A stretch of DNA of 64,000 nt from Daejeonella sp. (GTDB taxonomy: Bacteria > Bacteroidota > Bacteroidia > Sphingobacteriales > Sphingobacteriaceae). The notes below the pieces were generated by a model. It did no database searches and was not told the DNA's origin. It was given only the letters and a program-made list of their open reading frames with translations. Every line of letters begins with the position of its first letter. Positions within the stretch are counted from its first letter, which is position 1. The stretch spans positions 1 through 64,000 of the forward strand of contig NZ_JAUXXZ010000081.1 of assembly GCF_030684675.1 (NCBI RefSeq), written 5' to 3'. Both the position numbers and the translations under genes were made by a program. This document shows, piece by piece, positions 24,810-54,494 of this stretch.

Positions 24810-24811
24810 CT

Positions 24812-25903: not shown

Positions 25904-25905
25904 GC

Positions 25906-35766: not shown

Positions 35767-36885
35767 TTATTTAGAAGAATTTAGTTCTTGTTCATTGTTT
35801 TCATTTTCTTCACCAAGCGGTGGTTTATTCTGCCAGTAAGACGCCAGGATAGATCCGCTGATGTTCATCATTGGGCCGTAAATCATAGGTGCCAAGCCAA
35901 CCGTTCCCAGTTTGCCCATACCATGAGCCAAACCCTTTGAGAGTCCCGCATTCTGCATACCCACATTTATAGCTATTGTCCTACAATCCTTCTCATTCAT
36001 TCCGAATAATCTTGCAGACCAGTAGCCCAGGGTATATCCCATTAAATTATGAATCAGTACCAGCAAAATCAGCAGCGGTCCAACCGTCAGCAGGCTTTCT
36101 CTCCCTACTGCAGTGACAATGATGATAATGAAAGCAATCCCAAACATTGATACCATCGGCATTACTGAGTTCAGCCATTGGATCTTATCCTTGAGTAATT
36201 CATTCAGAACGATGGCCAGTGTGATTGGCAAAATGACCATTTTCATAATATCCCACATCATATCGAGCACATTGATTTCAATAAAGGAACCACCCAATAG
36301 CTTCATTAGTAAAGGAGTAAGGAATGGAGCCAATAAAGTTGCTATTGAAGTCAGGGTGATCGAAAGAGCCAGATTCGCTTTAGCCAGATAAGAAATCACA
36401 TTGGCAGCAACCGCATTCGGGGCACAGCCAATTAAAATCATTCCGGCAGCAATTTCCGGTTCAAAACTGCTCATACTTGCAAGGGCAAAACCGAGCAGGG
36501 GCATGATTGTAAAATGACTTAGGATACCCACAAAAACTCCTTTGGGAGCTTTAAATACCCCAAGAAAATCTTTATAGTTCATCGTGATACCCATCCCGAA
36601 CATGATCAGCTGAATCAGCGGGGTAATTAATCCCGAAAGCTTATAACCATTTATCTCTACGAAATACTGCGGAAAGATCAAGGCAGTTGAAACCACACCA
36701 ACAATCATGATCGGATAGGCAAATCCTTTCAAAACAGATACTCCCCTGACACCCAGGGCAACACAAACGATCCCTGCAATTAAGAAAGGTTCTGCTGTTT
36801 TTGGACTATTGATCAGATAAAGGATCAGCGCTGCCAGGAGGGAGATTGCCCCCAGACCCATTACGATTTTGAATATTGGCTTCAT
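35767..36885 (-). CDS. Bile acid:sodium symporter family (BASS) transporter
   Basis: Polytopic; GITMNYKDFLGVFKAPKGVFVGILSHFTIMPLLGF; GCAPNAVAANVISYLAKAN. Confidence 0.92.
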   Translation of the reverse strand: MKPIFKIVMGLGAISLLAALILYLINSPKTAEPFLIAGIVCVALGVRGVSVLKGFAYPIMIVGVVSTALIFPQYFVEINGYKLSGLITPLIQLIMFGMGITMNYKDFLGVFKAPKGVFVGILSHFTIMPLLGFALASMSSFEPEIAAGMILIGCAPNAVAANVISYLAKANLALSITLTSIATLLAPFLTPLLMKLLGGSFIEINVLDMMWDIMKMVILPITLAIVLNELLKDKIQWLNSVMPMVSMFGIAFIIIIVTAVGRESLLTVGPLLILLVLIHNLMGYTLGYWSARLFGMNEKDCRTIAINVGMQNAGLSKGLAHGMGKLGTVGLAPMIYGPMMNISGSILASYWQNKPPLGEENENNEQELNSSK

Positions 36886-36891: not shown

Positions 36892-37824
36892 TTAATAGGT
36901 TCTTTTCGACATAAACTGATCCAATTGAGCACGGCTAATCTTCTTTTCAGCGGGATTCCGATCGAGCCACTTCAGATATTCAACCTTGATTGGATCGGTC
37001 CACTGAGTATCGACCTCATTTGCATTATAAGTCCCACTCCTGATCATCTCATGTCCGAAACGATCTTTGGACGCAATAAACTCTGCGGTAGAAACAACCA
37101 GCTCAGCCATATGTGCCGGAATGAAAACCACCCCTGCCCTTCCGGCAATAACCAGGTCGCCGGGAAGCACAATTGCCGCTCCGATCGTAATCGGTGTATT
37201 CAATCCCATAAGCACTACACCCTGTAAAAACTGTGGAGCAAAGTCTCTGACATGAGCGTTAAACCCTTTGATATCGGCCAGTCCATCAACATCCCGTGCA
37301 AATCCATCGAAAACAACCCCATTGCCCGAATTCTTATAGATCACATTACCAAGGTTATCACCCATCAGTGATCCTACTCTGCCCTTATTATCAGCCACAT
37401 ACACATCCCCCTGAGTTAGCATATTGATTGGCCAATGTAAATGTCTTCCGGCACGACCCTCCTTTGCTGCACGATCTACAATATTCTTTTCCACATCCGG
37501 ACGGATCGGCATAAACTGAGCCGTCAATGCCCTGCCTACTACTTTTACTTCTTCATGAAGTATTTTCCAGTTGCGCTCATACTGATAGAGGTATCCTTCA
37601 TTATTCAGAATCTGCCAGGCTTCTTCAATGCCAATTTCACGGGCACGTTTCACAAGGTCATCTGAAATCCGTGGACGACCGTCGGCAAAGCGCTCACCCT
37701 TCCAGGCTGAAGTCAGAAATATCAATTCATCTTTCGGTATTGCCTGCGCAAATACAGTGGAAACTAAACCAAAAAAACAAACAAAAATAAGAGATAGATA
37801 AAATCTATAATTTTTTGAAAACAT
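36892..37824 (-). CDS. RraA-family protein with signal peptide
   Basis: Leader LSLIFVCFFGLVSTVFAQ; GSLMGDNLGNVIYKNSGNGVVFDGFARDVDGL; PGDLVIAGRAGVVFIPAHMAE. Confidence 0.88.
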   Translation of the reverse strand: MFSKNYRFYLSLIFVCFFGLVSTVFAQAIPKDELIFLTSAWKGERFADGRPRISDDLVKRAREIGIEEAWQILNNEGYLYQYERNWKILHEEVKVVGRALTAQFMPIRPDVEKNIVDRAAKEGRAGRHLHWPINMLTQGDVYVADNKGRVGSLMGDNLGNVIYKNSGNGVVFDGFARDVDGLADIKGFNAHVRDFAPQFLQGVVLMGLNTPITIGAAIVLPGDLVIAGRAGVVFIPAHMAELVVSTAEFIASKDRFGHEMIRSGTYNANEVDTQWTDPIKVEYLKWLDRNPAEKKISRAQLDQFMSKRTY

Positions 37825-37882: not shown

Positions 37883-38836
37883 CTATGCTTTCTTAGGAAA
37901 CTTCCAGATCTCCAGAGCATTTTTACCCATAATTAAATCCAGATCCTTTTCGGTATAGAAATCACAGTATTTATACATAAACTCCAGTTCTTTATCCATC
38001 GGAAGTTCCCATCGTGGGAAAGGATATCCTGTTCCCCAAATAATCTGCTTCGCTCCAAACTCTTCATAAATTGCTTTATAGAAGGGCAGCGTATCTTCAT
38101 AAGGGTACTTTTTTATCTCTGACATTTCATAGGGTTCTGAATTACTGATCCAGACATTTTTGAAACGACTGAGTTTAAACATTTTTTTAAATTCAGGCCA
38201 GCAATCAGCTGCCTTAAGATCTGGTTTACCGGCATGGTCAACTACTATTTTCACACCCGGAAAACGCTCAGCCATATCTTCGAGCATAGGCATTTGATGA
38301 GGCACAATATAATAATTGAAACAAAGTCCTAGCTTTTCAGCTTCTTTCCACAATGGATAATGGGCTGGCGAATTTAGCCAGGTTTCTCTAGGATGGTATA
38401 TCGGACTGAAGCGCATCCCCTGAAAACCATGCTCATTAACCCAATACCTCAGGTTATCGACAATTTTAGGATCATGTGGATTCAGTAAACCATGAGCAAC
38501 AAAATGATTGGGATAAGTTTTGAGGCAATGAGCCTTGTAAGAATTGTCCCATCCATAATAGCGCGGATTTATTAATACTCCATAGGTTATATTAAAATCC
38601 TTCATCTGCTTCACCTGATTTTCAATTGGCGCTTCAATTGCAGCTTTTGCATTTGGATTTTCGGGATGTTTGAACGGAAAACGTGCATCAAAATTCCAGG
38701 TTTCCACATGGGTATCGATGACAAGACGCTTTTTCTTAAATTTCTCAGGCATTGAAGCCAGTACTGAATCAATAGGATTAATCAAGCCCAATAAGGGCAT
38801 TGCTGCCATCCCTTTAATGATGTCTCTGCGTTTCAT
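37883..38836 (-). CDS. Amidohydrolase_2 family metal-dependent hydrolase with Tat-like leader
   Basis: MKRRDIIKGMAAMPLLGLI leader; VIDTHVETW; VVDHAGKPD; WGTGYPFPRWE. Confidence 0.85.
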   Translation of the reverse strand: MKRRDIIKGMAAMPLLGLINPIDSVLASMPEKFKKKRLVIDTHVETWNFDARFPFKHPENPNAKAAIEAPIENQVKQMKDFNITYGVLINPRYYGWDNSYKAHCLKTYPNHFVAHGLLNPHDPKIVDNLRYWVNEHGFQGMRFSPIYHPRETWLNSPAHYPLWKEAEKLGLCFNYYIVPHQMPMLEDMAERFPGVKIVVDHAGKPDLKAADCWPEFKKMFKLSRFKNVWISNSEPYEMSEIKKYPYEDTLPFYKAIYEEFGAKQIIWGTGYPFPRWELPMDKELEFMYKYCDFYTEKDLDLIMGKNALEIWKFPKKA

Positions 38837-38870: not shown

Positions 38871-40520
38871 TCAGGTTGCCAATGGCTGACCACCCGGAAT
38901 CATTACTTTTTGTTTCGGAAGTTTAGTTGTATTACGTCTGGCTGTAAATTTAGCGGTCAGGTATTCGCCCATATGAATATCTCCGGCAATAATATCTCCA
39001 TTCACCCTTCCTGAAAAGAGGTAGATAATGATGTTTCCAACAATTGGGATCGTACTTCTGATCTTTACCTCATTTCCATCTATAGTACCCGCCATATTTT
39101 TCGTATCGAGATCTCCTTTATGAGTTCCCTGAATCCAGTTTCCATCCTGCTCAATCACAAATGAATGCATACTGGTGCTTAAAGCATACTGCACTTCAAC
39201 ATCCCAGCGTCCGCTAAGATTAGCAGCAGGTGCAGCCATTTCAGGTTTAAAACTTCGTTTCTTCGACAAGACTTCAAAGAGACGCTCAGCTACTATTTTC
39301 TCCTCACCCGGCTGCATATGACCCGGAGTAATCTGTATTGAAGTAGTTCCATCAGCCTCGTCACGATTCCCTAATGCAATTCTGGGCTTATTCCTTCCCA
39401 CCTCTTCAGCGATCTCATAACCTGTAACAGGATACTTTGCAGGATCCCAGATAATATGTAGTACCGGATACTTGTTATTCAGATTTACCGGTTCAATAAT
39501 TTTCGTTGTAAGTCCGCTGATGCCTGATACTCTTTTCGAAATTACATCAAGCCAGGCAAGCCATCTTTTCCATTCCGCTTCATGATCACGTACCAGCCAA
39601 TCCTCAACTGCAGCCACCATACCAACAATTTCATCTCGATCCAGTTTATTATCACGGCCGGGTCCATGGTGTGGCGCACTTGCCTGCCAGGCCGCAAGTA
39701 AAATATTTTTATTGCCAAGCATTAATCCCGCTGACTGCGGTCCGCGAATAGTTTTACCCCCGCTATAAGCAACAATATCCGCCCCTCTTTTCAAATGTAC
39801 AGGCGGAATCGTGAGACTTTCTGCTGCTGCATCCATCAGAATTGGAATATTCTTTGGTTTGGCAATTGCTGCGATTACTTCAAGAGAAAGAGGCTGACCG
39901 GTATCTGAAGCCGCTCCGGGAGTTCCGGAAGTCAGATAAATCATTGCCGTTTTCGGATTGATCGCTTTTTCAAGCTCAGCAGCTGTCGAAACTGTTATAA
40001 TTTTAACCCCTATATTCCTTACTGCATGATCATAATGCTGACGTGAATATCTGGGTATGATTACCTCAGTTTTCTCAAATCCGGTAAGATCAGGAATACG
40101 AATCAGCCTTTCAGGACTTCCACCAGTAACACAAGCTGCTGTAATGTGTTTAACTCCGGCTGCACATCCGGATGAAACCATTCCCCATTCTGTTTTTGTG
40201 AGTTCAGAAAGTCGCTTACCGGCCGCTTCTGCGAGTTCGTCGAGCTGAACGAAATTATTACTGGCCGCATCGAGTGCCGCTTTTACTTTCGGAAGTTTAA
40301 TTGAACCACCAATGATAGTAAATGAACCCCTGCAATTTATGATTGGTTCAACCCCCATTGAGCGATAAATATTCTTCTCATCCAGGAATGAACTTAATGT
40401 TGTTTCTGTAAAATTTTCCAAAGATCCTTGCAATTCAACTGATTGTGCAGCTTCTCCCTGAAGAACATTGCCAATTACAGGAAGTAAAGCAAGGCCCTTA
40501 ATAACACTTCTACGCTTCAT
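38871..40520 (-). CDS. SelA/DgaE-like PLP-dependent enzyme, Tat-like leader, extra C-terminal domain (copy 1)
   Basis: MKRRSVIKGLALLPVIG; VEPIINCRGSFTIIGGS; VAYSGGKTIRGPQSAGLMLG (PLP lysine); HHGPGRDNKLDRDEIVG. Confidence 0.88.
   Translation of the reverse strand: MKRRSVIKGLALLPVIGNVLQGEAAQSVELQGSLENFTETTLSSFLDEKNIYRSMGVEPIINCRGSFTIIGGSIKLPKVKAALDAASNNFVQLDELAEAAGKRLSELTKTEWGMVSSGCAAGVKHITAACVTGGSPERLIRIPDLTGFEKTEVIIPRYSRQHYDHAVRNIGVKIITVSTAAELEKAINPKTAMIYLTSGTPGAASDTGQPLSLEVIAAIAKPKNIPILMDAAAESLTIPPVHLKRGADIVAYSGGKTIRGPQSAGLMLGNKNILLAAWQASAPHHGPGRDNKLDRDEIVGMVAAVEDWLVRDHEAEWKRWLAWLDVISKRVSGISGLTTKIIEPVNLNNKYPVLHIIWDPAKYPVTGYEIAEEVGRNKPRIALGNRDEADGTTSIQITPGHMQPGEEKIVAERLFEVLSKKRSFKPEMAAPAANLSGRWDVEVQYALSTSMHSFVIEQDGNWIQGTHKGDLDTKNMAGTIDGNEVKIRSTIPIVGNIIIYLFSGRVNGDIIAGDIHMGEYLTAKFTARRNTTKLPKQKVMIPGGQPLAT
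38874..39236 (-). other. C-terminal ~121-aa beta-type extra domain plus conserved PLAT tail of SelA-like copy 1
   Basis: NLSGRWDVEVQ...IEQDGNWIQGTH...GEYLTAKFTA...MIPGGQPLAT; shared with copies 2 and 3. Confidence 0.75.
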
Positions 40521-40521
40521 T

Positions 40522-41763
40522 TTATTTATATGTATTTGCTGCCAGACCGTTCAGATCCCAAACAATCCTTCCGGCGCGCACTGTAAGCTCTGCTTCAAGT
40601 TTACGATCCCCTTCGATCCTGTTTTGTCCGGAGTCTACAAAACCAAACTTGCCATTACTTATACTCAGCACTGCAATATCTGCAACTGAGCTTTCTGATA
40701 AATTTCCAAGATCTTCACGCTTAATTGATTTCGCAGCATTCCAGCTTCCACGGGCTATTACTTCAGGAATACTCATGCCAATATTCAGATATTTTGACAT
40801 CACATTCAGCATATTCTTCATACCTGAGTTCATACTTGTGCGATGCTCATCGGTTCCAAAAGAATTTGGCCAGAGTCCCTGATTATATGCCGGAATCGCC
40901 TGATTAAACCAGAATCCGGCTCCCCCATGCCCCACATCGAAAAGCACACCTCTTTTCTGCGCCTCCAAAACAAAAGGTCTGACCTTCCCCTGCTCATCAA
41001 CAACCGTCATACGCTCGGAGACATTCTCAAATGAATGAGTTATAATATCACCGGACCGCATATGATCCAATTGTTCCTGGAGTGTGTATTGAGGCATATG
41101 GCATTCCACAAAAAGCGGTCTATTAGCAATTTTTGCAGCTTCTGATGCCCGCTCAAAAGGAAGCCAGCTTTTCCCCTTATAATGACCAACCCTGGTACCT
41201 ACAATATAATCCTTGTATTTCTGAATGGCTTCAGCAGTCTTTTGAACACTTACTGTACCCATATCGGGTTCAAAACCAGAGCCTGAGCTAAATCCAGTTT
41301 CAAAAATATTGATCCAGGCGAGCACGCGGGTTATTGAGGGATCAATCACTTTCGCTTTAAAGTCAGGGAAGGTTCTCCATCCGGTGGTACCCGCATCAAC
41401 AACTGTAGTTATGCCAGAGCGTATTGCAAAAGCATCAGGTAGCTGACTGGATTGTCCGTCAGAAAAACCAGAATTACTGCCCGCGAAGACATGAGTATGG
41501 ATATTGATCAGACCAGGGGCTACTATAAGTCCGCTTACATCAAGCACCTTCTTTGCAGCCGACGCGGGGATATCAGCAGCCACCCTAAATATTTTACCGT
41601 CTTTTACGGCTACATCCATTATGGCATCAATTTTATTTTTTGCATCAATCAGCCTTCCGCCCTTCAGCAATAAATCATAATCCTGAGCCTGAGATAAAAA
41701 AGGACTTAGCAAAAAGAACAACATAAGTGATGCTCTTTGAAGAGACATCATAACATGGTTCAT
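40522..41763 (-). CDS. Exported cog3964-type amidohydrolase, subfamily A (copy A1)
   Basis: Signal RASLMLFFLLSPFLSQAQ; DLLLKGGRLIDAKN; INIHTHVFAGS; ITTVVDAGTTGW; GTDEHRTSMNSG. Start moved to MNHVMMS. Confidence 0.87.
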   Translation of the reverse strand: MNHVMMSLQRASLMLFFLLSPFLSQAQDYDLLLKGGRLIDAKNKIDAIMDVAVKDGKIFRVAADIPASAAKKVLDVSGLIVAPGLINIHTHVFAGSNSGFSDGQSSQLPDAFAIRSGITTVVDAGTTGWRTFPDFKAKVIDPSITRVLAWINIFETGFSSGSGFEPDMGTVSVQKTAEAIQKYKDYIVGTRVGHYKGKSWLPFERASEAAKIANRPLFVECHMPQYTLQEQLDHMRSGDIITHSFENVSERMTVVDEQGKVRPFVLEAQKRGVLFDVGHGGAGFWFNQAIPAYNQGLWPNSFGTDEHRTSMNSGMKNMLNVMSKYLNIGMSIPEVIARGSWNAAKSIKREDLGNLSESSVADIAVLSISNGKFGFVDSGQNRIEGDRKLEAELTVRAGRIVWDLNGLAANTYK

Positions 41764-41822
41764 GAACCTGTATTTTCCAATTTGCAACAAATTATTTTCC
41801 ATGATAGTAAATTTCAGAAATA

Positions 41823-43106
41823 TTAGTTTTTCCAGGGCTGTCCACTGATTCCATTCAAATCCCACATAATTTTCCCAGCCCTTAAAGTCAGTTCAGCCTC
41901 CAACTTTTTTGAGCCTTCGACACTAACTTTGCGAACATCGGTAAAGCCAAACTTTCCTTCCCTCAGATTGAAAACTGCAATATCTGCTTCAGCACCAACA
42001 CTTAAATGTCCGAGATCTGTTCGCTTGATTACTTTGGCCGGCGCCCAGGTTGAGCGCTCAATCACATCTTTTAATTCCATACCCAAAGCAAGAAACTTGG
42101 ACATCACATTTGTCATATCTTTCATTCCCGCATTCATGCTTTGATCGTGCAGGTCAGAACTGATCACATCCGGCAAAAAACCCTGTTTGAATGCAGGGAT
42201 AGCCTGCGCCCATGAAAATGCTCCCCCACCGTGACCTACATCGAAAACAACACCGCGCTTTTGAGCCTCTAAAATAAAGGGCTTTAATTTTCTGGTCTTC
42301 TCATCCACAATGGATTCACGGCCGGAACTAATCTCAGAATAAGTATGGGTAAAAATATCTCCCGGACGAAAATGCTTTAGAAAAAGCGACTCAATGGAGT
42401 TTGTTGGCACATGCTCTCCAAAATCTACCATAATCGGCACATCTGCGAGCTTACCCGATTCAACTGCTTTATCCACCGAAGTAAATTCTCCCCAATAATG
42501 TGCTGATTTAATACCAACAAGAATTTCCGGAAATAACTTTTTTATCATATAAGCGTTCATTTCAGGATTCATATCATTGATATCCTGCTCTTCGAAGCGA
42601 CCTATCATTCCGTTTCCGATCACATTCAGAAAAGCCAGAATACGGGTTTGGGATTTGTCGATTGACTGAGCTTTGAATGTTCTGAAATTGCGCCAACCCG
42701 AAGTTCCTGCATCCACCATCGTAGTTACTCCGGATCTGAATGAGAAAGCATCGGCCTGCTGACTGCGGGAAGAATTAGCTACCGATGTACTATACTTGTC
42801 GGTACCCTGAAATACATGTACATGCATATCAATTATTCCGGGGCTGACATAGAGACCACTAACATCCACAGTTTTTTTAGCTGAGGATTCCGGAATGTTT
42901 GCTGCCACTCTGAATATTTTACCATTCAAAATCGCCACATCCATTTTGACATTAATATTATTTTTAGGATCGATCACATGACCACCTTTCAAAAGAATAT
43001 CAATTTCCTGGGCATTCACTGTTTGAATAGCCAGAAGAATAATAACTATCAGGCTAACTCTCTGATAGCGAAATAGCCATGAATTAAACTCTTTTAATGT
43101 TGTCAT
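41823..43106 (-). CDS. Exported cog3964-type amidohydrolase, subfamily B (copy B1)
   Basis: IDILLKGGHVIDPKNNI; IDMHVHVFQGT; VGIKSAHYWG; IMVDFGEH; SSDLHDQSMNAG. Confidence 0.87.
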   Translation of the reverse strand: MTTLKEFNSWLFRYQRVSLIVIILLAIQTVNAQEIDILLKGGHVIDPKNNINVKMDVAILNGKIFRVAANIPESSAKKTVDVSGLYVSPGIIDMHVHVFQGTDKYSTSVANSSRSQQADAFSFRSGVTTMVDAGTSGWRNFRTFKAQSIDKSQTRILAFLNVIGNGMIGRFEEQDINDMNPEMNAYMIKKLFPEILVGIKSAHYWGEFTSVDKAVESGKLADVPIMVDFGEHVPTNSIESLFLKHFRPGDIFTHTYSEISSGRESIVDEKTRKLKPFILEAQKRGVVFDVGHGGGAFSWAQAIPAFKQGFLPDVISSDLHDQSMNAGMKDMTNVMSKFLALGMELKDVIERSTWAPAKVIKRTDLGHLSVGAEADIAVFNLREGKFGFTDVRKVSVEGSKKLEAELTLRAGKIMWDLNGISGQPWKN

Positions 43107-43182
43107 TCTATTTCTCTTTGATTTTATTCGATTATACCTGTAAATTTTAATATTTCAGCAGACCAAAACCTGTACAAGATGC

Positions 43183-43929
43183 TTATTGAAATTTAAGAAT
43201 CCCAAAGAATTGAGGTAAATGGAACTGAGGCTTGTCATTTTTAACTTCGTTCCAGGTGATGTAATGAGGGTTGGAGTTAATTTCAGCGATTTTATAGAAA
43301 TTCGCTCTCCAGGCAACACCCGGTTTAGGACGAACCACGTTTGTATATTTTTCAAGCATACTCAATGGGATCTTAAAAGACATAGTCCAGGTTACCGGCT
43401 CGGTAATCTCTGTATCTACCACCTTTGGCAAAGAAGCCTTGATCTGAATTTTCTGAATATCCTCAACAGTAGGCCTGTTCTTTTTGTGATGAAGTAGAGG
43501 AGTGCCTCCGCAATTGATCTCGAGATTAAAATAGTTGATTGGGTTATCGGCCTCAGGCGAGAAAAAGAACTCAACAGCAGAGTCTCTCCATACAGGTCCG
43601 TTTATTTTTTCAGTAATACTTTTTACATAGCGATCCTTAACTCTATAAATAACATAGATAAAATCATCATCATAAGTCATTTTAACATCCGCCTTAGGCT
43701 TGAATGCAGGAATTTTACCCATGTAGTTTCGAATCTTAATTGATTTAATCCCTTTCCATCCGGATGCATTCCATTTGTCGTTAACATCAACCGTTTTAGC
43801 TGATTTTTTAACATTATAAACAAGAAAATCTGACGAATTGTTTGCAGAACCTTGCTGAGCGCTTAATGCATTGACAAAAAACAGTAAGATTAAAAGAAAA
43901 AGGGAAGTAATTTTTAATTTTTTCATCAA
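43183..43929 (-). CDS. Exported carbohydrate-binding family 9-like (CBM9) protein
   Basis: Signal peptide; KWNASGWKGIKSIKIRNYMG...FIYVIYRVKDRYVKS...VEFFFSPEADNPINYFNLEINCGG. Confidence 0.82.
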   Translation of the reverse strand: MMKKLKITSLFLLILLFFVNALSAQQGSANNSSDFLVYNVKKSAKTVDVNDKWNASGWKGIKSIKIRNYMGKIPAFKPKADVKMTYDDDFIYVIYRVKDRYVKSITEKINGPVWRDSAVEFFFSPEADNPINYFNLEINCGGTPLLHHKKNRPTVEDIQKIQIKASLPKVVDTEITEPVTWTMSFKIPLSMLEKYTNVVRPKPGVAWRANFYKIAEINSNPHYITWNEVKNDKPQFHLPQFFGILKFQ

Positions 43930-44001
43930 TTTGATTGTTATTTAATGGACAAGAGGGTTAAATCAGATATTTAATTCTACAGACAAAATTGTTTGATTAA
44001 A

Positions 44002-44038
44002 CCTGCCGGTTTCTTGCAATCTGAAAGAAACCGGCAGG
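44002..44038 (-). terminator. Strong hairpin in the middle of the SelA/amidohydrolase array
   Basis: Perfect 14-bp stem CCTGCCGGTTTCTT / AAGAAACCGGCAGG with 9-nt loop. Confidence 0.6.
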
Positions 44039-44049
44039 GTAAAATGATA

Positions 44050-45705
44050 TTAAGTTGCCAAAGGCGGACCCGCAGGGATTTGAATTCTTTTCCTTGCAGG
44101 TGTTGATTTTCTGCGGTTTGCAGTAAAAGTAGCTGTTCGGTATTCACCCAGGTGAATATCTCCCGACATCGAATCGCCACTCACTGTACCCTGGAAAAGG
44201 TAATTGATGTTATCAGCAATGATCTTAATCGTGCTTTCGAACCTCACCTTATTACTATCAATTGTACCTGCAAGAGCTCTGGTATCAAAATCTGCTTTAT
44301 GAGTACCAGAAAGCCAGTTACCATCCTGTTCAATGTTTAATGTATGCATACTGGTACTGCTGAAAAACTTGATGTTCAAATCCCAAAGACCGGCAAGATT
44401 TGCTGATGGAGCAGACATTTCAGGTCTTGGGCTTCGCTTTCTTGAAAGAACTTCAAAAAGTCTGTCGGCTATAATTTTCTCTTCTCCGGCTTGTATTTGC
44501 CCGGTAGTTATACTGACAGAACTAATACCATCAGTTTCACCCCGACTGGCAAGAGCAATTCTTGGTTTGTTTCTGCCCAATTCCTCTGCAAGCTCAAAAC
44601 TATTGATATTAAGCTTGTTAGAATCCCAGGTCACAAATAATACAGGTGACTTGTTGGATAAGCCCTGAGGTTCATGAACATTGGTTTTAACTCCTTCAAT
44701 CGGTGCAATTTTCTTTGAAATTGTATCCAGCCAACCCAACCATTTTTTCCAGTCGGCAGCGTGATCCCTTCTAACCCAATCTTCAACCGCTGCCATCATT
44801 CCGATCATCTCTTCACGGCCTACCTTATTATCCCGTCCGGGACCATGATGTGGAGAACTTGCCTGCCAGGCAGACATCAAAATTGATTTATCACCTAGCA
44901 TTAATCCAGCGCATTGCGGCCCGCAAATAGCTTTTCCTCCACTATATGCAACCAGGGTCGCTCCACGCTTTAGGTGTACTGGTGGAATGGTCAGATTCTG
45001 AGCTGCAACATCAATCAGAACCGGAATATTTTTTGGTTTTGCAAAGGATGAAATCACTTCCAGCGATAGTGGCTGACCTGTTTCAGAAGCAGCTCCTGCA
45101 GTCAGGTAAATCATTGCCGTCTTTGGATTAATGGCCACTTCCAATTCTTCGGCTGTGGAAACATGAACTATCTTCACCCCAATATTCCTGATTCCGTGAT
45201 CATACGCATTACGTGAGTATCTTGGAATAATAACTTCATCCTTATCAAAACCGGTCAGGTCGGGGATACGGATCAGTTTCTCAGGATTACCACCTGTAAC
45301 ACAGGCAGCTGTGATATGTTTAAGTCCCGCAGCACATCCTGCCGAAACCATGCCCCATTCTGCTCCTGTCAGATCAGCAAGGCGCTGACCAATTCCATCA
45401 GCCAACTCATCATACTGTACAAAGTTATGCGCTGCAGCTTCCATTGCTTCACGAACTGCCTGGCGCTCGATCGATCCTCCAATGATTGTATATGTTCCCA
45501 TACAGTTTATCACCGGTTCTACGCCTATTTTACGAAAAATATTGGTATCCGCCATGAATGATGCTGCTGTTGTTACAGCTTCCGATCCTGCCAATGCAGG
45601 AGATCCACTTCCTGCAATGGAATTCCCCAAAACGGATTGTGCCGGAAGAACCGCGCCTGCAACAGGTAACATCGCCAAGCCTTTGATTAAATTTCTACGT
45701 TTCAT
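44050..45705 (-). CDS. SelA/DgaE-like PLP-dependent enzyme, Tat-like leader, extra C-terminal domain (copy 2)
   Basis: MKRRNLIKGLAMLPVAGAVLPA; VEPVINCMGTYTIIGGS; VAYSGGKAICGPQCAGLMLG. Confidence 0.88.
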   Translation of the reverse strand: MKRRNLIKGLAMLPVAGAVLPAQSVLGNSIAGSGSPALAGSEAVTTAASFMADTNIFRKIGVEPVINCMGTYTIIGGSIERQAVREAMEAAAHNFVQYDELADGIGQRLADLTGAEWGMVSAGCAAGLKHITAACVTGGNPEKLIRIPDLTGFDKDEVIIPRYSRNAYDHGIRNIGVKIVHVSTAEELEVAINPKTAMIYLTAGAASETGQPLSLEVISSFAKPKNIPVLIDVAAQNLTIPPVHLKRGATLVAYSGGKAICGPQCAGLMLGDKSILMSAWQASSPHHGPGRDNKVGREEMIGMMAAVEDWVRRDHAADWKKWLGWLDTISKKIAPIEGVKTNVHEPQGLSNKSPVLFVTWDSNKLNINSFELAEELGRNKPRIALASRGETDGISSVSITTGQIQAGEEKIIADRLFEVLSRKRSPRPEMSAPSANLAGLWDLNIKFFSSTSMHTLNIEQDGNWLSGTHKADFDTRALAGTIDSNKVRFESTIKIIADNINYLFQGTVSGDSMSGDIHLGEYRTATFTANRRKSTPARKRIQIPAGPPLAT

Positions 45706-45732
45706 TTTATATCTTTTAATTTCTGTGTATTT

Positions 45733-46977
45733 CTATTTATAAGCGTTTGCTGCCAGACCATTGAGGTCCCAAATAATACGACCTGCACGTACAGTAAGCT
45801 CTGCTTCCAATTTTTTATCGCCTTCAATCTTATTATTACCCGAATCTACGAAACCAAACTTTCCTTTAGCAACACTCAATACAGCAATATCTGCGACCGA
45901 TCCTTCCGACAAATTCCCCAGATCTTCACGTTTGATTGACTTGGCAGCATTCCAGCTTCCTCTGGCAATGACTTCAGGCATCGTCATTCCCATATTCAAA
46001 TATTTAGACATCACGTTCAACATGGTTTTCATACCTGAATTCATGCTTGTACGATGCTCATCTGTACCAAATGAATTTGGCCATAAACCCTGCTTAAATG
46101 AAGGAACAGCCTGATTAAACCAAAATCCACCGCCTCCGTGGCCAACATCAAAGAGTATACCTCTTTTTTGAGCGGCTAATACAAAGGGTCTGACCTTTCC
46201 CTGTCCATCCACTACGGTCATCCGTTCAGAAACATTTTCGAATGCATGAGTAATAATATCTCCTGCACGCATTTTGTTTAACTGATCTTCGAGAGAATAC
46301 ATTGGTAGGTGGCACTCTACAAAAAGAGGCTTATTGACTAATTTTGCAGCTTCTGATGCTCGATCAAAGGGTGTCCACTCAGTTCCATCATATCGTCCGA
46401 TGCGCACACCAACCAGAATATCCGGATACTTACTGACAGTTTCGGCTGTTTTCTGAACATCCATCTCAGCGATATTTTCCTGAGCTTTGTCTGCAGAATA
46501 ACCTGATGCCGCAATACTCAGAAAGGCCAGCACACGGGTCATTGAATTATCAATTATTTTAGCCTTAAAATCAGGGAAGGTACGCCAGCCGGAAGTACCT
46601 GCATCAACAACAGTTGTTATTCCTGCACGCGGGGCAAAGGCATCCGGTAACTGACTTGAAGTTCCATCGGTAAATCCGGGATTGCTGCCGGCATATACAT
46701 GTGTATGCATATTGATCAGGCCCGGTGCAACAATCAAACCGCTTACATCCACAACCTTTTTTGCAGAACTTGCAGGAATATCGGCTGCAACACGAAATAT
46801 TTTACCTGCTTTAATGGCGATATCCATTTTGCGATCAATACTATTTTTTGCATCGATTACATGGCCACCTTTTAATAAAAGATCAATATCCTGAGCCTTA
46901 ACCTGAGTGGTACAGGCAAAGAATATAAGTACAATCATTAATGGCATTGACCCTTTGAAATTTAATAGCTTGTTCAT
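45733..46977 (-). CDS. Exported cog3964-type amidohydrolase, subfamily A (copy A2)
   Basis: DIDLLLKGGHVIDAKNSI; INMHTHVYAGS; VGVRIGRYDG; FVECHLP; GTDEHRTSMNSG. Confidence 0.87.
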   Translation of the reverse strand: MNKLLNFKGSMPLMIVLIFFACTTQVKAQDIDLLLKGGHVIDAKNSIDRKMDIAIKAGKIFRVAADIPASSAKKVVDVSGLIVAPGLINMHTHVYAGSNPGFTDGTSSQLPDAFAPRAGITTVVDAGTSGWRTFPDFKAKIIDNSMTRVLAFLSIAASGYSADKAQENIAEMDVQKTAETVSKYPDILVGVRIGRYDGTEWTPFDRASEAAKLVNKPLFVECHLPMYSLEDQLNKMRAGDIITHAFENVSERMTVVDGQGKVRPFVLAAQKRGILFDVGHGGGGFWFNQAVPSFKQGLWPNSFGTDEHRTSMNSGMKTMLNVMSKYLNMGMTMPEVIARGSWNAAKSIKREDLGNLSEGSVADIAVLSVAKGKFGFVDSGNNKIEGDKKLEAELTVRAGRIIWDLNGLAANAYK

Positions 46978-47010
46978 ATTGTTTTAGTTTTTTGATTCTA
47001 TTTAAAAAAA

Positions 47011-48324
47011 TCAATTAGTAGCTGCCGGCATTTGCCATTCGGGAACACTGATTCCATTTAAATCCCAGACTACGCGTCCGGCCCTGAGAGTCAATTCTGC
47101 TTCAAGTTTTTCTGTACCGTTGATTTTCGTGCGCCGGACATCCATATAGCCGAAATTTCCCTTTTTTAAGTTAAAAACTGCAATATCGGCCTCAGAACCA
47201 ACACTTAAATGACCCAAATCCGGGCGTTTAATTACTTGTGCAGGATTCCAGCTTGATCGTAAAATGACATCCTGAAGGCTCATACCCATGGCAAGGAATT
47301 TGGACATCACATTAGTCATATCTTTCATTGCTGCATTCATACTTAAATTGTAAAGGTCTGTACTAATCGTATTTGGCATGAAGCCCTGCTTCATGGCAGG
47401 AATTGCCTGATTGAAGTTGAATGCACCTGCACCGTGGCCTACATCGAAAATAATACCTCTTTTTTGTGCAGCAAATACGAAGGGTTTAACTTTCCTGGAC
47501 TTTTCATCGACAATAGATTCACGACCTCCATTAATTTCCGAGAACGTATGTGTAAAAATATCACCCGGTCTGAAATGTTCCATGAATAAAGATTCAATTG
47601 AATTGGCAGGAGTATGTTCCCCGAAATCAACAATAACCGGAACATTGGCCAGTTTACCCGACTCAACTGCCTTATCCACCGATGTAAAATCACCCCAAAA
47701 ATGTGCAGACTTTAATCCGACGATTAGGTTTGGATACAAGCGTTTGATCATATAGGCATTCATTTCCGGATTCATATCTGTCACGTCCTGCTGATCAAAA
47801 CGGGAAAGCATCCCGTGACCTACAACATTCAGAAAGGCTAATACCCGGGTCTGAGCACGATCAATTGACTGTGCTTTAAACAGCGGGAAATTCCTCCAGC
47901 CTGAAGACCCTGCATCAACTACAGTAGTAACTCCCGCGCGGAAAGAAAAGGCATCTGCCTGCAATCCACCGTAAGAATTTGCTGTCATACTATTCGGATC
48001 GGTACCATGAAAAACATGGGTATGCATATCAATAAGGCCTGGAGTAACATATAAGCCAGTTATATCAACCGTCCTTTTTGAAGTACTAGCCGGAATATCC
48101 TTTGCAACCCGGAATATTTTATCACCGACAATGGCAACATCCATTTTAGAGTTGATATTGTTCTTTGGATCAATAACATGGCCGCCTTTAAGGAGGATAT
48201 CTATTTCCTGAGCATGGACGGTTGATGATATCAGGATGAGAACTAAAACAGCTCCAATTCCTTGTACAATCCGGACAAATTGGTGCTGAATAAATTCTGA
48301 AATACCTGCTGTTTTAGTTCTCAT
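47011..48324 (-). CDS. Exported cog3964-type amidohydrolase, subfamily B (copy B2)
   Basis: EIDILLKGGHVIDPKNNI; IDMHTHVFHGT; VGLKSAHFWG; VIVDFGEH; STDLYNLSMNAA. Confidence 0.87.
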   Translation of the reverse strand: MRTKTAGISEFIQHQFVRIVQGIGAVLVLILISSTVHAQEIDILLKGGHVIDPKNNINSKMDVAIVGDKIFRVAKDIPASTSKRTVDITGLYVTPGLIDMHTHVFHGTDPNSMTANSYGGLQADAFSFRAGVTTVVDAGSSGWRNFPLFKAQSIDRAQTRVLAFLNVVGHGMLSRFDQQDVTDMNPEMNAYMIKRLYPNLIVGLKSAHFWGDFTSVDKAVESGKLANVPVIVDFGEHTPANSIESLFMEHFRPGDIFTHTFSEINGGRESIVDEKSRKVKPFVFAAQKRGIIFDVGHGAGAFNFNQAIPAMKQGFMPNTISTDLYNLSMNAAMKDMTNVMSKFLAMGMSLQDVILRSSWNPAQVIKRPDLGHLSVGSEADIAVFNLKKGNFGYMDVRRTKINGTEKLEAELTLRAGRVVWDLNGISVPEWQMPAATN

Positions 48325-48348
48325 GATTTTCTATTTAAATACAATTAA

Positions 48349-49662
48349 TTATCTGTTAACTGCATCCCATTGAGGCCCGCTGAGACCATTCAGATCCCAT
48401 GCAACTCTACCGGCACGAAGGGTTAATTCTGCTTCAAGTTTTTTATTGCCGTTGAACACAGAACCACGGGCATCCATAAAGCCGAATTTACCTTCTCTAA
48501 TATTGAAGACTGTTACGTCAGCTTCTGCTCCAACACTCAGGTGTCCAAGTTCAGTATGCTGAATTACATTTGCAGGATTCCAGGTTGAACGTAAAACCAC
48601 ATCCTGAATAGACATTCCCATATTTAAAAACTTGGACATTACATTTGCCATATCTTTCATACCTGCATTTCTACTGTTTCTGTAAAGGTCAGTACTGATG
48701 GTATTCGGATAAAAGCCCTGCTTTAATGCATTGATAGCTGTACTCCAGACAAATGCACCACCGCCATGACCGGTGTCAAAGATTCTGCCCTGTTTTTGAG
48801 CTTCGAAAATGAAAGGTTTTACTTTATTATTGCCATCTACAATTGGTTCACGGCCATTTGGAGTCACTGCTGAAGCAGCATTCCCTGAAAAAGTGTGGGT
48901 AAAAATATCACCCGGACGGAAATGTTTCATAAACAGTTCTTCAATGGATAATTTAGGTGTGCTTGATCCGAAATCCACCATAATTGGCTTATTGGTTAAT
49001 CTTCCGGTAGCAATTGCACGATCAACCGGACCAAAATCATTTCCCTGATAATGATGCGCTTTAATTCCTACGATGATATCGGGATATTCCTTCATAATAA
49101 AAGCAGTAGTAACCGGATTCATGTCCGTAGTGTCCTGAGCATGGACAGTGCCTGACATACCATGTCCGGCCATGCTAATAAATGCAAGAACACGGGTTTG
49201 AGAGTTGTCTATAGTCTGCTTTTTGAATTGATGGAAATCTCTCCATCCAGCAGAACCTGCATCAACCACAGTAGTTACTCCTGAACGGAAGGTAAAATCA
49301 TCAGGGGCAACACTGCCAAAACCGTTTGTGATTCCAAAGCCTGTGAAACCTGGTTCTTCGGCACCTGCAAATACGTGGACATGCATGTCAATAAAGCCAG
49401 GTGAAACATATAATCCTTTGGCATCTACAGTTCTCTTAGCAGAAGTTGCTGGAATGTTTGCGGCAACCCGGTAGATCTTACCATCTTTAATTGCAACATC
49501 CATGACTGTATTAATATTATTTTTGGGGTCGATCACATGACCACCTTTTATTAACATATCAATTTCCTGCGCCTGCAAAGCTGATAAAGTCATCAGGCAT
49601 AAGCTAAAAACAAAGATGCTCGCATATTCTCTGATTTTTATAATTACATTTCTATTCATCAT
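48349..49662 (-). CDS. Exported cog3964-type amidohydrolase, subfamily B (copy B3)
   Basis: EIDMLIKGGHVIDPKNNI; IDMHVHVFAG; VGIKAHHYQG; IMVDFGSS; STDLYRNSRNAG. Confidence 0.87.
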   Translation of the reverse strand: MMNRNVIIKIREYASIFVFSLCLMTLSALQAQEIDMLIKGGHVIDPKNNINTVMDVAIKDGKIYRVAANIPATSAKRTVDAKGLYVSPGFIDMHVHVFAGAEEPGFTGFGITNGFGSVAPDDFTFRSGVTTVVDAGSAGWRDFHQFKKQTIDNSQTRVLAFISMAGHGMSGTVHAQDTTDMNPVTTAFIMKEYPDIIVGIKAHHYQGNDFGPVDRAIATGRLTNKPIMVDFGSSTPKLSIEELFMKHFRPGDIFTHTFSGNAASAVTPNGREPIVDGNNKVKPFIFEAQKQGRIFDTGHGGGAFVWSTAINALKQGFYPNTISTDLYRNSRNAGMKDMANVMSKFLNMGMSIQDVVLRSTWNPANVIQHTELGHLSVGAEADVTVFNIREGKFGFMDARGSVFNGNKKLEAELTLRAGRVAWDLNGLSGPQWDAVNR

Positions 49663-49704
49663 ATATTAGTTTAAGTGTTTAAAATTCAATTTAGATAATT
49701 TTCA

Positions 49705-51387
49705 TTAACTCGCAAGAGGGGCGCCCGAAGGAACAAAAACAGGTTTTTTAGGCGCTGGTTTAGTATTTTTGGTAGCAGTAAATTTTGCACTCCTGTATTC
49801 ACCCATAAATAAATTACCTGTAATGGTATTTCCAGAAAGACTTCCCGTAAACGTATAGATTATTGAGTCACCTATCAGTCTGACAGAACTCTGGAGTTTA
49901 ACAGAATCCCCTTCAATTGAACCAGCCATATCATTCACCGCAAAGCCACCCTGGTGAGTTCCCTTGATCCAGTTGCCATCCTGCTCAATGAACAACTTGT
50001 GTTTGCCTTCACTGTTATAAAACTTGACATCAACATCCCATGTACCTGAAATATTGGCTGCTGGAGCTTTCATCTCTGTAGATCTAGGGCTTCTTTTAGC
50101 TGTCAGAACATTATAAATCTGATCTGCAGCAATCTTCTCTTCACCGGCCTGCATACCAATTGTAGTCACTGCGATTCCATTGATATTGGGGTCCTTACCT
50201 CTGCCACCCCCACTGGCAACTGCAATTCTTGGCTTATTCTTGCCAAGCTCATCGGCCATTTCAGCTCCGGTAATGTTTAAGACATCGGGATCCCAGGTTA
50301 TAACCACTTCAGGAGATACATTCGACAGGCCTGACATAGTAGATGGAACATGAATCATCGTTTGAACACTTTTTATGCCCGAAACTTTTTTAATAATATG
50401 ATCCAGATAGGAATCCCATTGTTTACGAACAGCCGCATGATCCATTTCTTTCCAGAGTTTCACTGCTGCAACCATACCGAACATTTCATCCCGGTCTACT
50501 TTATTATCCCGGCAAGGACCATGGTGTGGAGAGCTTGCCTGCCATGCAGCCATTAAAATATCCTTCTGACCAAGAATTAATCCACAGGATTGTGGCCCGC
50601 AGATTGCCTTTCCACCACTGTAGGCAACTATACTTGCACCACGTTTTAAATGAACAGGCGGAAATGTCAAAATTTCATTTGCCGCATCAAACAAAACAGG
50701 AACCTTTTTTGCTTTTGCAATTGCAGAAATATTCTCAAGCGACATTGGTGCTCCCGCCCAGGATCTGTCGCCATTGACCATATAAATCAGTGCTGTTTTG
50801 GGATTGATCGCATTTTCCAATTCTTCGAGTGTAGAGACATTCACCATTGTAACCCCGATATTCCTGATAGAATGATCATAAGCATTTCTGGAAGTTATTG
50901 GTACGATAACCTCAGTTTTTTCAAGTCCATCCAGATCCGGAATACGAACCAGCTTCTCAGGATCTCCGCCGGATACTACTGCCGCAGTAACCAGCTTTAG
51001 TCCGGCTGCACATCCGGCTGATACCACACCCCATTCAGCTCCAGTCAGATCAGCCAGAGTCTGGCCTATACCATCAGCTACTTCATCCATTTGTGCAAAA
51101 TTATGAGAGGCTGCTTCCATGGCAGCTTTAGTTTGAGGACGTTTTAATGAACCTCCAATGATGGTAAAAATACCTCTGCAATTTATTATTGGCTCAATAC
51201 CATGTGTTCTGTAAATATTATTTTTATCCAAAAACGACTCTAATGTAACTTCAACAGGACTACCCGTTTTGTACGGTGCAGCGGTTAAATTTTCGGCAAG
51301 CGGTGATGCGAGCGACGAATTGAATGGAATCGCGCTGCCTGCCAGTGGCAGAAGTGACAAGGTTTTAAGAACATTTCTACGTTTCAT
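49705..51387 (-). CDS. SelA/DgaE-like PLP-dependent enzyme, Tat-like leader, extra C-terminal domain (copy 3)
   Basis: MKRRNVLKTLSLLPLAGSAIP; IEPIINCRGIFTIIGGS; VAYSGGKAICGPQSCGLILG. Confidence 0.88.
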   Translation of the reverse strand: MKRRNVLKTLSLLPLAGSAIPFNSSLASPLAENLTAAPYKTGSPVEVTLESFLDKNNIYRTHGIEPIINCRGIFTIIGGSLKRPQTKAAMEAASHNFAQMDEVADGIGQTLADLTGAEWGVVSAGCAAGLKLVTAAVVSGGDPEKLVRIPDLDGLEKTEVIVPITSRNAYDHSIRNIGVTMVNVSTLEELENAINPKTALIYMVNGDRSWAGAPMSLENISAIAKAKKVPVLFDAANEILTFPPVHLKRGASIVAYSGGKAICGPQSCGLILGQKDILMAAWQASSPHHGPCRDNKVDRDEMFGMVAAVKLWKEMDHAAVRKQWDSYLDHIIKKVSGIKSVQTMIHVPSTMSGLSNVSPEVVITWDPDVLNITGAEMADELGKNKPRIAVASGGGRGKDPNINGIAVTTIGMQAGEEKIAADQIYNVLTAKRSPRSTEMKAPAANISGTWDVDVKFYNSEGKHKLFIEQDGNWIKGTHQGGFAVNDMAGSIEGDSVKLQSSVRLIGDSIIYTFTGSLSGNTITGNLFMGEYRSAKFTATKNTKPAPKKPVFVPSGAPLAS

Positions 51388-51500: not shown

Positions 51501-52757
51501 TCATCCTTTCTCAGTTACCTGCCGTATTACACGCAGCCAGTTCAATCCGAGAATTTTACGAATACGCTGCTCTGAATACCCCAGCTTCTGCATTGCATAA
51601 GTCATTTGAGGATAATCACTTACATCCTTTATTTCTCTCGGCAGAGGTGGCCCACCATCAAAGTCTGAACCCAGGGCAATATGATCTTCACCAACAAGTC
51701 GAACTCCATAATCTATTACTCTTGCAAGCTGGTCTGTCCCCATCCAATACTCGTCTGGAATTACTTCATTATTAACGAAAGGAAGTCCTTTGGAGAGCGA
51801 TTGATCCACTTCCTCAATGGTTAATGGGCTTTTTTGTTTTGGATCTGCTGTTGCAGTTGATCCGGGCTTGCGCTTTGATTCCATCCATTGGGCATATTTA
51901 GGATTATTGAAACTGCTCCCAAACTGTATTCCGATTACTCCCCCTTTTGCGGCTAATGCTTTTGCACATTCATCTGTAATACACCTTAAACTATTCACAA
52001 TACCACGAAAACCTCCATGGCTATAAATCACGGGCTGGCTGCTCGCTTCAACAGTTTGAAGGATGGCATCATCTGATGCATGGGCTACATTAATAAGCAT
52101 CCCCAACCTATTCATCTCAGTCACAATATCACGCCCATGGACATTTAATCCGCCCCAGCGCTTCTCCCCATAACATGAATCAATAAATGCATTCGTTTCG
52201 TTATGAGCGGTAAGCTGCACTGATCGAAGGCCTAAGCGATAAAGAGTCCTTAATATGTTCAGATCACCATCCAGATCAAAACCTCCCTCAAGATCCAGAA
52301 AAGCTGCCATCTTGCCTCTACGGTTTATTCTGACAATATCTGAGGCATTATGTGCAAGTTCAATAAGATGATTGTTCTTCCCTATCTGTGCAAGAGCGAG
52401 TTCAACAACACGAAAAGTGTTTTTTACTTCATGACGGTCGGGATAATAAGGCTCCGGAGTATAACAGGAGAAGAACATTGCATCCAGTCCCCCCTCAATA
52501 GCTCTTGGAATATCAACATGACCATCCGGATAGCGATCTCCGATATCAAGTCCCTGTAGTAACTGCCTGGTCATCATATGTATATGACCATCCATAACAA
52601 AAGCTTTTTTATGCAGATCAGAATTAAATAATTTACATGATGCGGAATTAAATAAAGATCCGGATTCATCAATAATTGAATTTTTCCCAATTTTAAAAGG
52701 AGAAAATTCAGCTATTGGCAGAATCGTTAAACACTTTATGACATCCCTGCGTTTCAT
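51501..52757 (-). CDS. Membrane dipeptidase (peptidase M19) family, Tat-like leader
   Basis: MKRRDVIKCLTILPIAEF; VMDGHIHMM; FLDLEGGFDL; VAHASDDAI; IYSHGGFRGI; GSDFDGGPPLP. Confidence 0.88.
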   Translation of the reverse strand: MKRRDVIKCLTILPIAEFSPFKIGKNSIIDESGSLFNSASCKLFNSDLHKKAFVMDGHIHMMTRQLLQGLDIGDRYPDGHVDIPRAIEGGLDAMFFSCYTPEPYYPDRHEVKNTFRVVELALAQIGKNNHLIELAHNASDIVRINRRGKMAAFLDLEGGFDLDGDLNILRTLYRLGLRSVQLTAHNETNAFIDSCYGEKRWGGLNVHGRDIVTEMNRLGMLINVAHASDDAILQTVEASSQPVIYSHGGFRGIVNSLRCITDECAKALAAKGGVIGIQFGSSFNNPKYAQWMESKRKPGSTATADPKQKSPLTIEEVDQSLSKGLPFVNNEVIPDEYWMGTDQLARVIDYGVRLVGEDHIALGSDFDGGPPLPREIKDVSDYPQMTYAMQKLGYSEQRIRKILGLNWLRVIRQVTEKG

Positions 52758-53069: not shown

Positions 53070-54494
53070 CTACCAACCAGTATTTTGCGTCAATTTAGGA
53101 TTGATATCCAACTCCAACTGAGGAATTGGGAATAAGGCATGCTTGGTAGTATATCCCAGGGGACCTAATTCCTGAACAGCTAAACCCCATCTTCTCAAAT
53201 CATTAAAACGGATGAATTCAAACATCAACTCAACCTGTCTTTCTTTATTGATGGCATTGAACATGGTTGCTTTTGTACCTGTATCGGTAGCTGTTAATGC
53301 AGGCATATTCACTGACGGTCTGGCACGAACCTGATTTACAGCAGCTCTGGCCTCAGGTAGTTTGTTCAGCTCATTTGCTGCTTCAGCATACATCAATAAA
53401 ACATCAGCATAACGAATAATAGGATAGTTTATACCATTGCTATTGACGTACATAATAGGCCACATACCTTTCTTTACCGCATAGCCGGTAGCTGACCAAA
53501 CCGCACTAAATGTAGACAGGGCTGTACTAACATTCGGAGCGAATGTATCACCTGGCTTGAAGATTGACATACCACGTCGTGGATCTGCCGGATCAAATGC
53601 ATCAAATGCTCTTTTGGTAGCCAAACCTGAACCAGTAGCTCCATTCACTGCAGGAAGATAACTTCCATTACGGCCATTTGTGCCACTACCACCAATATCG
53701 GCAAATTGAACCTCAAAAATGGATTCTTTATTGTTTTCGAAACTACGGTGCCATACTTCCTGGAAGTTATCCATCAAACCATATTTCCCTGAATTGATTA
53801 CCAGTAAAAAGTATTTCTCAGCGTTGGCATAATCCTTATTGTACAGATAAACTTTTCCAAGCAATGCCTGAGCCGCTCCCTTAGTTACTCTTCCCAAATT
53901 AGCACCGCTATGGGAAACTGGCAAACCCGCTTCTGCTGCCAATAAATCGGCAATTATAACTTTATACACATCGGCAGCAGGAGTTCTTGCAACCAGTGCG
54001 GCATCAGTATTCGGTAATGGTTGTGTGATCAATGGAACTGCACCGAATATATTAACGAGATCAAAATAGAAAAGAGCTCTTAGAAATTTAGCTTCCCCTA
54101 AATATTGATTCTTTAAGGCATCTGCCATATTAATTGCAGGAATATTCGTAATGGCAAGATTAGACCTGTATACTCCTTCATACAATCCTCTCCAGGTATC
54201 ATGAATCTGATTCAGTGCCGGAAAGTAAGTGAAATTATTATACTCCAAAGGAACTGTATTGGAAAGTAAAACCTCACCGGATGGCACATCATAAATCCGC
54301 TGGAGATTAATACTCCAGGCACTTTGAAGAGAAACATAAATTGCATTAACTCCTAACTGAGCTCTTTCTGCGGAATTATAAAAACCTTCCTCCGTCAATG
54401 CATCCGGTGGTGATTTTTCTAAAAACTCCTTCTTACAACCTGCAAATAACAAAAGCATTAACATGGTTGATATACCTAATTTTAGATTTTTCAT
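53070..54494 (-). CDS. RagB/SusD family nutrient-uptake outer membrane lipoprotein
   Basis: MLLLFAGCKKEFLEKSPPDALTEEGFYNSAERAQLGVNAIY; ends with LFPIPQLELDINPKLTQNTGW. Confidence 0.96.
   Translation of the reverse strand: MKNLKLGISTMLMLLLFAGCKKEFLEKSPPDALTEEGFYNSAERAQLGVNAIYVSLQSAWSINLQRIYDVPSGEVLLSNTVPLEYNNFTYFPALNQIHDTWRGLYEGVYRSNLAITNIPAINMADALKNQYLGEAKFLRALFYFDLVNIFGAVPLITQPLPNTDAALVARTPAADVYKVIIADLLAAEAGLPVSHSGANLGRVTKGAAQALLGKVYLYNKDYANAEKYFLLVINSGKYGLMDNFQEVWHRSFENNKESIFEVQFADIGGSGTNGRNGSYLPAVNGATGSGLATKRAFDAFDPADPRRGMSIFKPGDTFAPNVSTALSTFSAVWSATGYAVKKGMWPIMYVNSNGINYPIIRYADVLLMYAEAANELNKLPEARAAVNQVRARPSVNMPALTATDTGTKATMFNAINKERQVELMFEFIRFNDLRRWGLAVQELGPLGYTTKHALFPIPQLELDINPKLTQNTGW

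Follow-up and report, generated by a model that had tools for sequence, protein, structure and literature searches.

Predicted Tat export of three DgaE-like PLP enzymes encoded in a Sus-type operon of Daejeonella sp.

To our knowledge, few enzymes dependent on pyridoxal 5'-phosphate (PLP) are known to act outside the cytoplasm. The two exported examples discussed here, PvdN and PtaA of Pseudomonas, tailor one siderophore; they pass the twin-arginine translocation (Tat) system with the cofactor bound and are active in the periplasm (PMC6206403). The N-acetylglucosaminic acid (GlcNAc1A) pathway of Pseudoalteromonas, which uses a deacetylase, a PLP deaminase and a RidA protein, is cytoplasmic (PMC9537276). 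In DgaE, a cytoplasmic PLP ammonia-lyase, His-163 is the proton donor at C-3 and R301, R332 and R346 form the phosphate site; DgaE without His-163 releases an enamine of the kind that is degraded by RidA proteins (PMC9529869). Here we describe three genes encoding DgaE-like proteins with Tat-like leaders in a 64,000-nucleotide stretch of Daejeonella sp. (GCF_030684675.1, contig NZ_JAUXXZ010000081.1, positions 1 to 64,000), referred to as the window. The proteins probably belong to a family sister to DgaE and Cap15, whose members would be PLP-loaded ammonia-lyases, exported by Tat and working in an exported pathway. Exported PLP enzymes are known, and so is DgaE. What appears to be new is an exported member of the DgaE/SelA group with such partners: in the open-access literature searched, we found no exported lyase of this type occurring in many copies together with exported RidA and amidohydrolase partners.

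An earlier note on this DNA had placed the three genes at 38871-40520, 44050-45705 and 49705-51387, and intact open frames were found at exactly these coordinates on the minus strand:

38871..40520, minus strand: DgaE-like PLP enzyme, copy 1, 549 amino acids (aa), Tat leader MKRRSVIKGLALLPVIGNVL
44050..45705, minus strand: DgaE-like PLP enzyme, copy 2, 551 aa, Tat leader MKRRNLIKGLAMLPVAGAVLP
44053..44412, minus strand: C-terminal eight-stranded beta domain of copy 2 (the same in copies 1 and 3)
49705..51387, minus strand: DgaE-like PLP enzyme, copy 3, 560 aa, Tat leader MKRRNVLKTLSLLPLAGSAIP, PLP domain and C-terminal beta domain

The other two copies show 63% and 56% identity to copy 1 in pairwise comparison. 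The SGGK lysine motif and the HHGP-R-DNK segment reported for all of them are there, read as YSGGK in each copy and as HHGPGRDNK in two and HHGPCRDNK in the third. Each protein starts with MKRR followed by a hydrophobic stretch, as the earlier note had described, and this fits the twin-arginine pattern. In-frame stops lie within 30 codons upstream of the ATG in each copy, indicating that the leader is the natural N-terminus or near it. A false leader caused by a misplaced start codon is unlikely for the same reason, and because the arginine pair is conserved. Compared with their counterparts in four related loci, the three copies gave ratios of nonsynonymous to synonymous substitution (dN/dS) of 0.03-0.09 where measurable, so that all of them appear to be under purifying selection. 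Together with the intact frames, this rules out decayed copies. At the sequence level, the copies look active as had been proposed, their PLP-site residues being intact.

The closest solved proteins, by sequence as well as by fold, are DgaE of Salmonella (7lc0) and Cap15 of capuramycin biosynthesis (PDB 8t7j). Among solved structures, DgaE gives the strongest sequence match, with E 4.7e-30 for copy 1 and E 9e-61 for the family profile. The AlphaFold2 model of copy 2 (mean predicted local distance difference test, pLDDT, 76) reached template modelling (TM) scores, by target length, of 0.85 to 7lc0 and 0.87 to 8t7j; its first 42 residues are mostly of low confidence, as a leader would be. The proteins are of fold-type I and have the PLP lysine in SG[AG]K and the conserved aspartate of the DgaE family. 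Scores for the DgaE family models lie below the cut-offs (TIGR01437, 132-143 bits vs 385.3; NF047797, 120-135 bits vs 600). The common fold with SelA (L-seryl-tRNA(Sec) selenium transferase) is a distant one (TM 0.54-0.67 by target length). The SelA model TIGR00474 gave 18-26 bits in copies 1 and 3 against a cut-off of 267.9 and no match in copy 2. SelA identity is therefore ruled out (26 bits at best vs 268), in line with the earlier assignment to the SelA/DgaE-like group but not to SelA itself. The proteins share with DgaE the PLP lysine, the aspartate, R242 and K245 as well as the same kinds of neighbours (EF_0837-type amidohydrolase, aldolase, lactonase). Unlike DgaE, they are predicted to be exported, lack His-162/163 and the arginine trio of the phosphate site and carry an additional C-terminal beta domain. 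Uptake is of the Sus type here instead of by a phosphotransferase system (PTS) as for DgaE. Cap15, which acts on a beta-hydroxy-alpha-amino acid, resembles them in fold and PLP site but is O2-dependent and biosynthetic, and the aligned Cap15 sequence has no leader-bearing match. PvdN and PtaA were not among the sequence or fold matches found for the DgaE-like proteins.

In the copy 2 model the separate beta domain begins at about residue 435. It matches nothing significantly in Pfam. Its best hits in the PDB, to lipocalin-like barrels and a quinohemoprotein domain, have E 1.9e-3 and TM about 0.5-0.6; with E 2.4e-5 it also matches a phage protein of unknown function. Since no match in Pfam or the PDB is confident, the domain is left unnamed. 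Leaderless relatives encoded in phosphonate clusters of rhizobia align over it, so it is not tied to export.

Equivalents of DgaE K213, D189, S210, R242 and K245 are kept in all 127 sequences aligned (the PLP lysine is Lys-217 in the DgaE paper, PMC9529869, and 213 in the PDB sequence numbering as aligned here). By contrast, the exported clade does not retain His-162, His-163, Arg-301, Arg-332 and Arg-346 (DgaE numbering) as a complete set. The loss of the phosphate-site arginines would fit an unphosphorylated substrate, which is what one would expect outside the cytoplasm, and the exported RidA partners would suit an enamine released in the absence of His-163. In the long forms an additional histidine, invariant and part of HHGP, could take the place of the missing DgaE histidines. 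We infer that the reaction may be the beta-elimination of a 2-amino-3-hydroxy aldonate.

Export of the three proteins by Tat is well supported as a prediction. Each copy has an N-terminal twin arginine followed by an uncharged, moderately hydrophobic stretch, and all 18 DgaE-like proteins of the genome start with M[KN]RR and a stretch of this kind. The genome encodes TatC and three TatA/B/E genes. By a simple rule (RR with a 12-residue window of uncharged, hydrophobic residues close behind it), a Tat-like leader is present in 119 of 123 family members, compared with 2.9 expected when each leader is shuffled; this is not a probability because related leaders are not independent. The RR pair itself is kept in 124 of 127 members. 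Leaders from Acidobacteria, e.g. ATRRELFQIGNALALPMLLGGAEAVAA, keep the arginine pair and the hydrophobic stretch with unlike flanks. On a Granulicella plasmid RR leaders are present on the long and the short DgaE-like protein, RidA and the lactonase, and a Sec-type leader on the amidohydrolase. This plasmid, from Granulicella tundricola, carries in a row RraA, the short and the long DgaE-like gene, RidA, amidohydrolase, lactonase and a BBE-domain oxidase. Relatives from Clostridioides, Klebsiella, Rhizobium, Paraburkholderia, Aureimonas and two haloarchaea have no leader and start at the enzyme domain, and the long-form relatives on rhizobial plasmids are leaderless, too. In a phylogeny of 74 proteins a single change accounts for the distribution of the leader (branch support only 60). 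The leaderless long forms lie in phosphonate-biosynthesis clusters with phosphoenolpyruvate mutase, cytidylyltransferase and methyltransferases.

At the sequence level, the extracytoplasmic set put forward in the earlier note is supported by the leaders on 18 of 18 paralogs, their recurrence in Acidobacteria and the encoded Tat components. Folded export with the cofactor, which it had postulated, fits the leaders but is not new in principle, as PvdN and PtaA precede it. Limiting the exported set to three PLP enzymes was too narrow, since most of the operon, amidohydrolases and RidA included, has export leaders. The leaders, the PLP site, the loss of the phosphate-site arginines and the gene set can be read directly from the DNA. 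The other genes of the operon and its surroundings are:

30142..31281, minus strand: glycerate kinase (PF02595)
31303..31863, minus strand: RidA-like protein, export leader, ARS motif kept
31987..32553, minus strand: RidA-like protein, lipoprotein-type leader (LLSC), ARS motif at the usual RidA arginine
32573..33532, minus strand: D-2-hydroxyacid dehydrogenase
33629..34540, minus strand: xylose-isomerase-like TIM barrel protein
34593..35405, minus strand: 2-keto-3-deoxy-6-phosphogluconate (KDPG)/KHG-type aldolase, no leader, probable start at internal MDMKAELK, about 35255
35767..36885, minus strand: BASS-family transporter, best model PanS (ketopantoate/pantoate)
36892..37824, minus strand: RraA-like aldolase family protein, Sec leader
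37883..38836, minus strand: Amidohydro_2 protein, weakly like 4-sulfomuconolactone hydrolase, Tat-like leader MKRRDIIKGMAAMPLLG
40522..41865, minus strand: EF_0837/COG3964-type amidohydrolase, R replacing the carboxylated Lys; start uncertain, Sec-like leader from an internal Met
41823..43106, minus strand: EF_0837/COG3964-type amidohydrolase, K at the carboxylated-Lys position, Sec-like leader
43183..43929, minus strand: exported CBM9-like carbohydrate-binding protein (PF16011)
45733..46977, minus strand: EF_0837/COG3964-type amidohydrolase, R replacing the carboxylated Lys, Sec-like leader
47011..48324, minus strand: EF_0837/COG3964-type amidohydrolase, K at the carboxylated-Lys position, Sec-like leader
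48349..49662, minus strand: EF_0837/COG3964-type amidohydrolase, K at the carboxylated-Lys position, Sec-like leader
51501..52757, minus strand: M19 membrane dipeptidase family protein, Tat-like leader MKRRDVIKCL
53070..54494, minus strand: SusD/RagB-type lipoprotein (read from sequence)
54556..57960, minus strand: SusC-type TonB-dependent outer-membrane transporter (read from sequence)
58092..59330, minus strand: FecR anti-sigma factor (Pfam)
59420..59986, minus strand: extracytoplasmic function (ECF) sigma factor (Pfam)
60422..61678, plus strand: ROK-family regulator, divergent

With a SusC/SusD pair, ECF sigma factor and FecR, and adjoining degradative enzymes, this is a Sus-type nutrient utilisation locus. 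Two of the amidohydrolases reach 401 and 434 bits with the PRK09237 model (cut-off 371), and the EF_0837 model stays below its own cut-off. The metal ligands (HxH, H, D) are kept in 113-114 of 114 amidohydrolases. Three of the five keep the lysine that is carboxylated in binuclear members (K type) and two have Arg instead (R type), and the paired types may carry out different reactions. The TTG start of the frame of the KDPG-type aldolase (34593-35405) overlaps an upstream DUF4440 gene.

Of the DgaE-like proteins of the genome, ten are long forms of about 550 aa and eight are short forms of about 410 aa. Having 18 such genes and at least 24 EF_0837-type amidohydrolases in 4.25 Mb is an unusual expansion. 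Genome-wide, 18 of 24 EF_0837-type amidohydrolases lie within 6 kb of a DgaE-like gene compared with 1.06 expected; for the GSDH-type sugar dehydrogenases it is 6 of 15 compared with 0.66 (p 2.6e-5). Further kinds of genes in the paralogous clusters encode sugar dehydrogenases, lactonases, a PIG-L deacetylase, a NagB-like protein, a sulfatase with an N-sulphoglucosamine C-terminal domain and an enolase-family protein with a Tat leader. Of 102 loci, 59 have an amidohydrolase nearby, 37 a sugar dehydrogenase and 12 RidA, and leaders occur on RidA neighbours. The cytoplasmic DgaE clusters of Klebsiella and Clostridioides contain amidohydrolase, DgaE, KDGP aldolase and lactonase or kinase, with lyase and amidohydrolase both leaderless. 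The family is sporadic, being present in at least 7 of 297 sampled Bacteroidota genomes and, the own genome counted, in at least 6 of 61 of the same family; these counts are lower bounds from a limited first look. Within the genus one relative has seven copies and two others have none.

From this gene set we infer the substrate, reaction and step order of a periplasmic route for amino sugar acids. The SusC/SusD pair would take a glycan or amino-sugar derivative through the outer membrane. Aldose oxidation at C1 and subsequent lactone opening, which the kinds of genes fit, would precede deacylation. Together with the M19 and Amidohydro_2 proteins, the exported amidohydrolases of the COG3964 type would strip the N-acyl group or open lactones to yield a 2-amino-2-deoxy aldonic acid. 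The DgaE-like proteins would fold around PLP in the cytoplasm, pass the inner membrane folded via the Tat translocase and work in the periplasm, where a quinonoid would be formed, the 3-hydroxyl group expelled and the enamine/imine released. Exported RidA would hydrolyse this product, giving ammonia and a 2-keto-3-deoxy acid; import of the keto acid would fall to the PanS-like BASS transporter, and KDPG-type aldolase, hydroxyacid dehydrogenase and glycerate kinase would complete the breakdown inside the cell. The steps resemble those encoded by the ong cluster for oxidised chitin (OngB, OngC, the RidA protein OngD, KdgK; PMC9537276), i.e. deacetylation, PLP-dependent deamination, RidA and 2-keto-3-deoxygluconate (KDG). 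The ong cluster differs in being cytoplasmic and in its protein families, OngC being of fold-type III and OngB a D-aminoacylase. PvdN and PtaA differ in that they tailor a siderophore and do not belong to a chain of exported catabolic enzymes with RidA. More tentatively, and with somewhat less than an even chance, Bacteroidota and Acidobacteriota may have a complete extracytoplasmic, unphosphorylated route with sugar dehydrogenase, lactonase, deacylase, PLP ammonia-lyase and RidA all outside, in which reactive enamines arise and are quenched in the periplasm, the keto acid alone being imported.

Several observations weigh against a periplasmic amino-sugar-acid route. Of the 102 loci, 43 lack an amidohydrolase within 6 kb and the majority lack RidA, although many of these loci are truncated. 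A dedicated KDG kinase was not among the genes found in the operon. RidA also adjoins cytoplasmic homologues keeping His-162/163, which makes the argument from enamine release only suggestive. A pairing of proton-donor histidine loss with RidA adjacency was considered and rejected, as Rhizobium, Paraburkholderia and Aureimonas keep the histidines with RidA nearby. The M19 dipeptidase of the operon and the gamma-glutamyltranspeptidase and M81 metallopeptidase of a paralogous cluster would also suit peptide or N-acyl amino acid substrates. Alternatively it might be that the exported enzymes act on small N-acyl-amino acids or dipeptides, with beta-hydroxy amino acids resembling D-serine or D-threonine, and that the operon serves to salvage fragments of peptides or of the cell wall. 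D-serine and D-threonine are also accepted by OngC, the GlcNAc1A deaminase (PMC9537276). We consider this unlikely, though worth keeping in mind, because the CBM9-like protein, SusC/D, ROK, sugar dehydrogenases, lactonases, sulfatase and NagB-like neighbours indicate sugars, and KDPG-type aldolase and glycerate kinase suit a six-carbon keto acid.

Doubts about export arise from the leader motif, which has L/V/I where the canonical Tat motif has F, and from the hydrophobic stretch, which is short. A plausible A-x-A cleavage site can be seen by eye in copies 1-3; it is unclear in some relatives, and a clear one is absent in several leaders (e.g. Dyadobacter), so that some family members may stay membrane-anchored. 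These features and the leaderless relatives would suit cytoplasmic proteins, or proteins merely tethered to the membrane on the cytoplasmic side, with no working signal in the MKRR segment. The conservation of the arginine pair, also across phyla with unlike flanks, and the Sec, Tat or lipoprotein leaders of partner enzymes whose cytoplasmic counterparts have none make this quite improbable. The nearest folds furthermore include an oxygenase: Cap15, the second-best fold match and close in sequence, uses O2 (PMC7497351, PMC6411801), and PvdN carries out such chemistry in the periplasm (PMC6206403). Exported O2-using PLP enzymes that turn an amino acid into a carboxamide in the periplasm are nevertheless very unlikely here, given the catabolic context (deacylases, RidA, KDPG-type aldolase) and the loss in the exported clade of one loop histidine and arginines that Cap15 keeps.

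If export and ammonia-lyase activity hold, a Tat-exported catabolic PLP lyase family would move a step producing toxic enamines out of the cell, and up to 18 copies per genome with exported RidA partners would make the reason for the outside location testable. Proteins that currently carry no annotation beyond 'aminotransferase class V-fold' or 'selenium transferase' would gain a function, as would their amidohydrolase partners.

Elsewhere in the window, a PQQ dehydrogenase with a cytochrome c domain (6391-8550) is probably a periplasmic sugar or alcohol oxidase. A RES-domain protein and an Xre/MbcA/ParS-type antitoxin (20495-21424, Pfam) are likely a toxin-antitoxin pair. The region 22581-28049 is likely a carotenoid cluster, with desaturase/hydroxylase-like, Caroten_synth, glycosyltransferase, acyltransferase-like and amine-oxidase-type desaturase genes and LytB in between.

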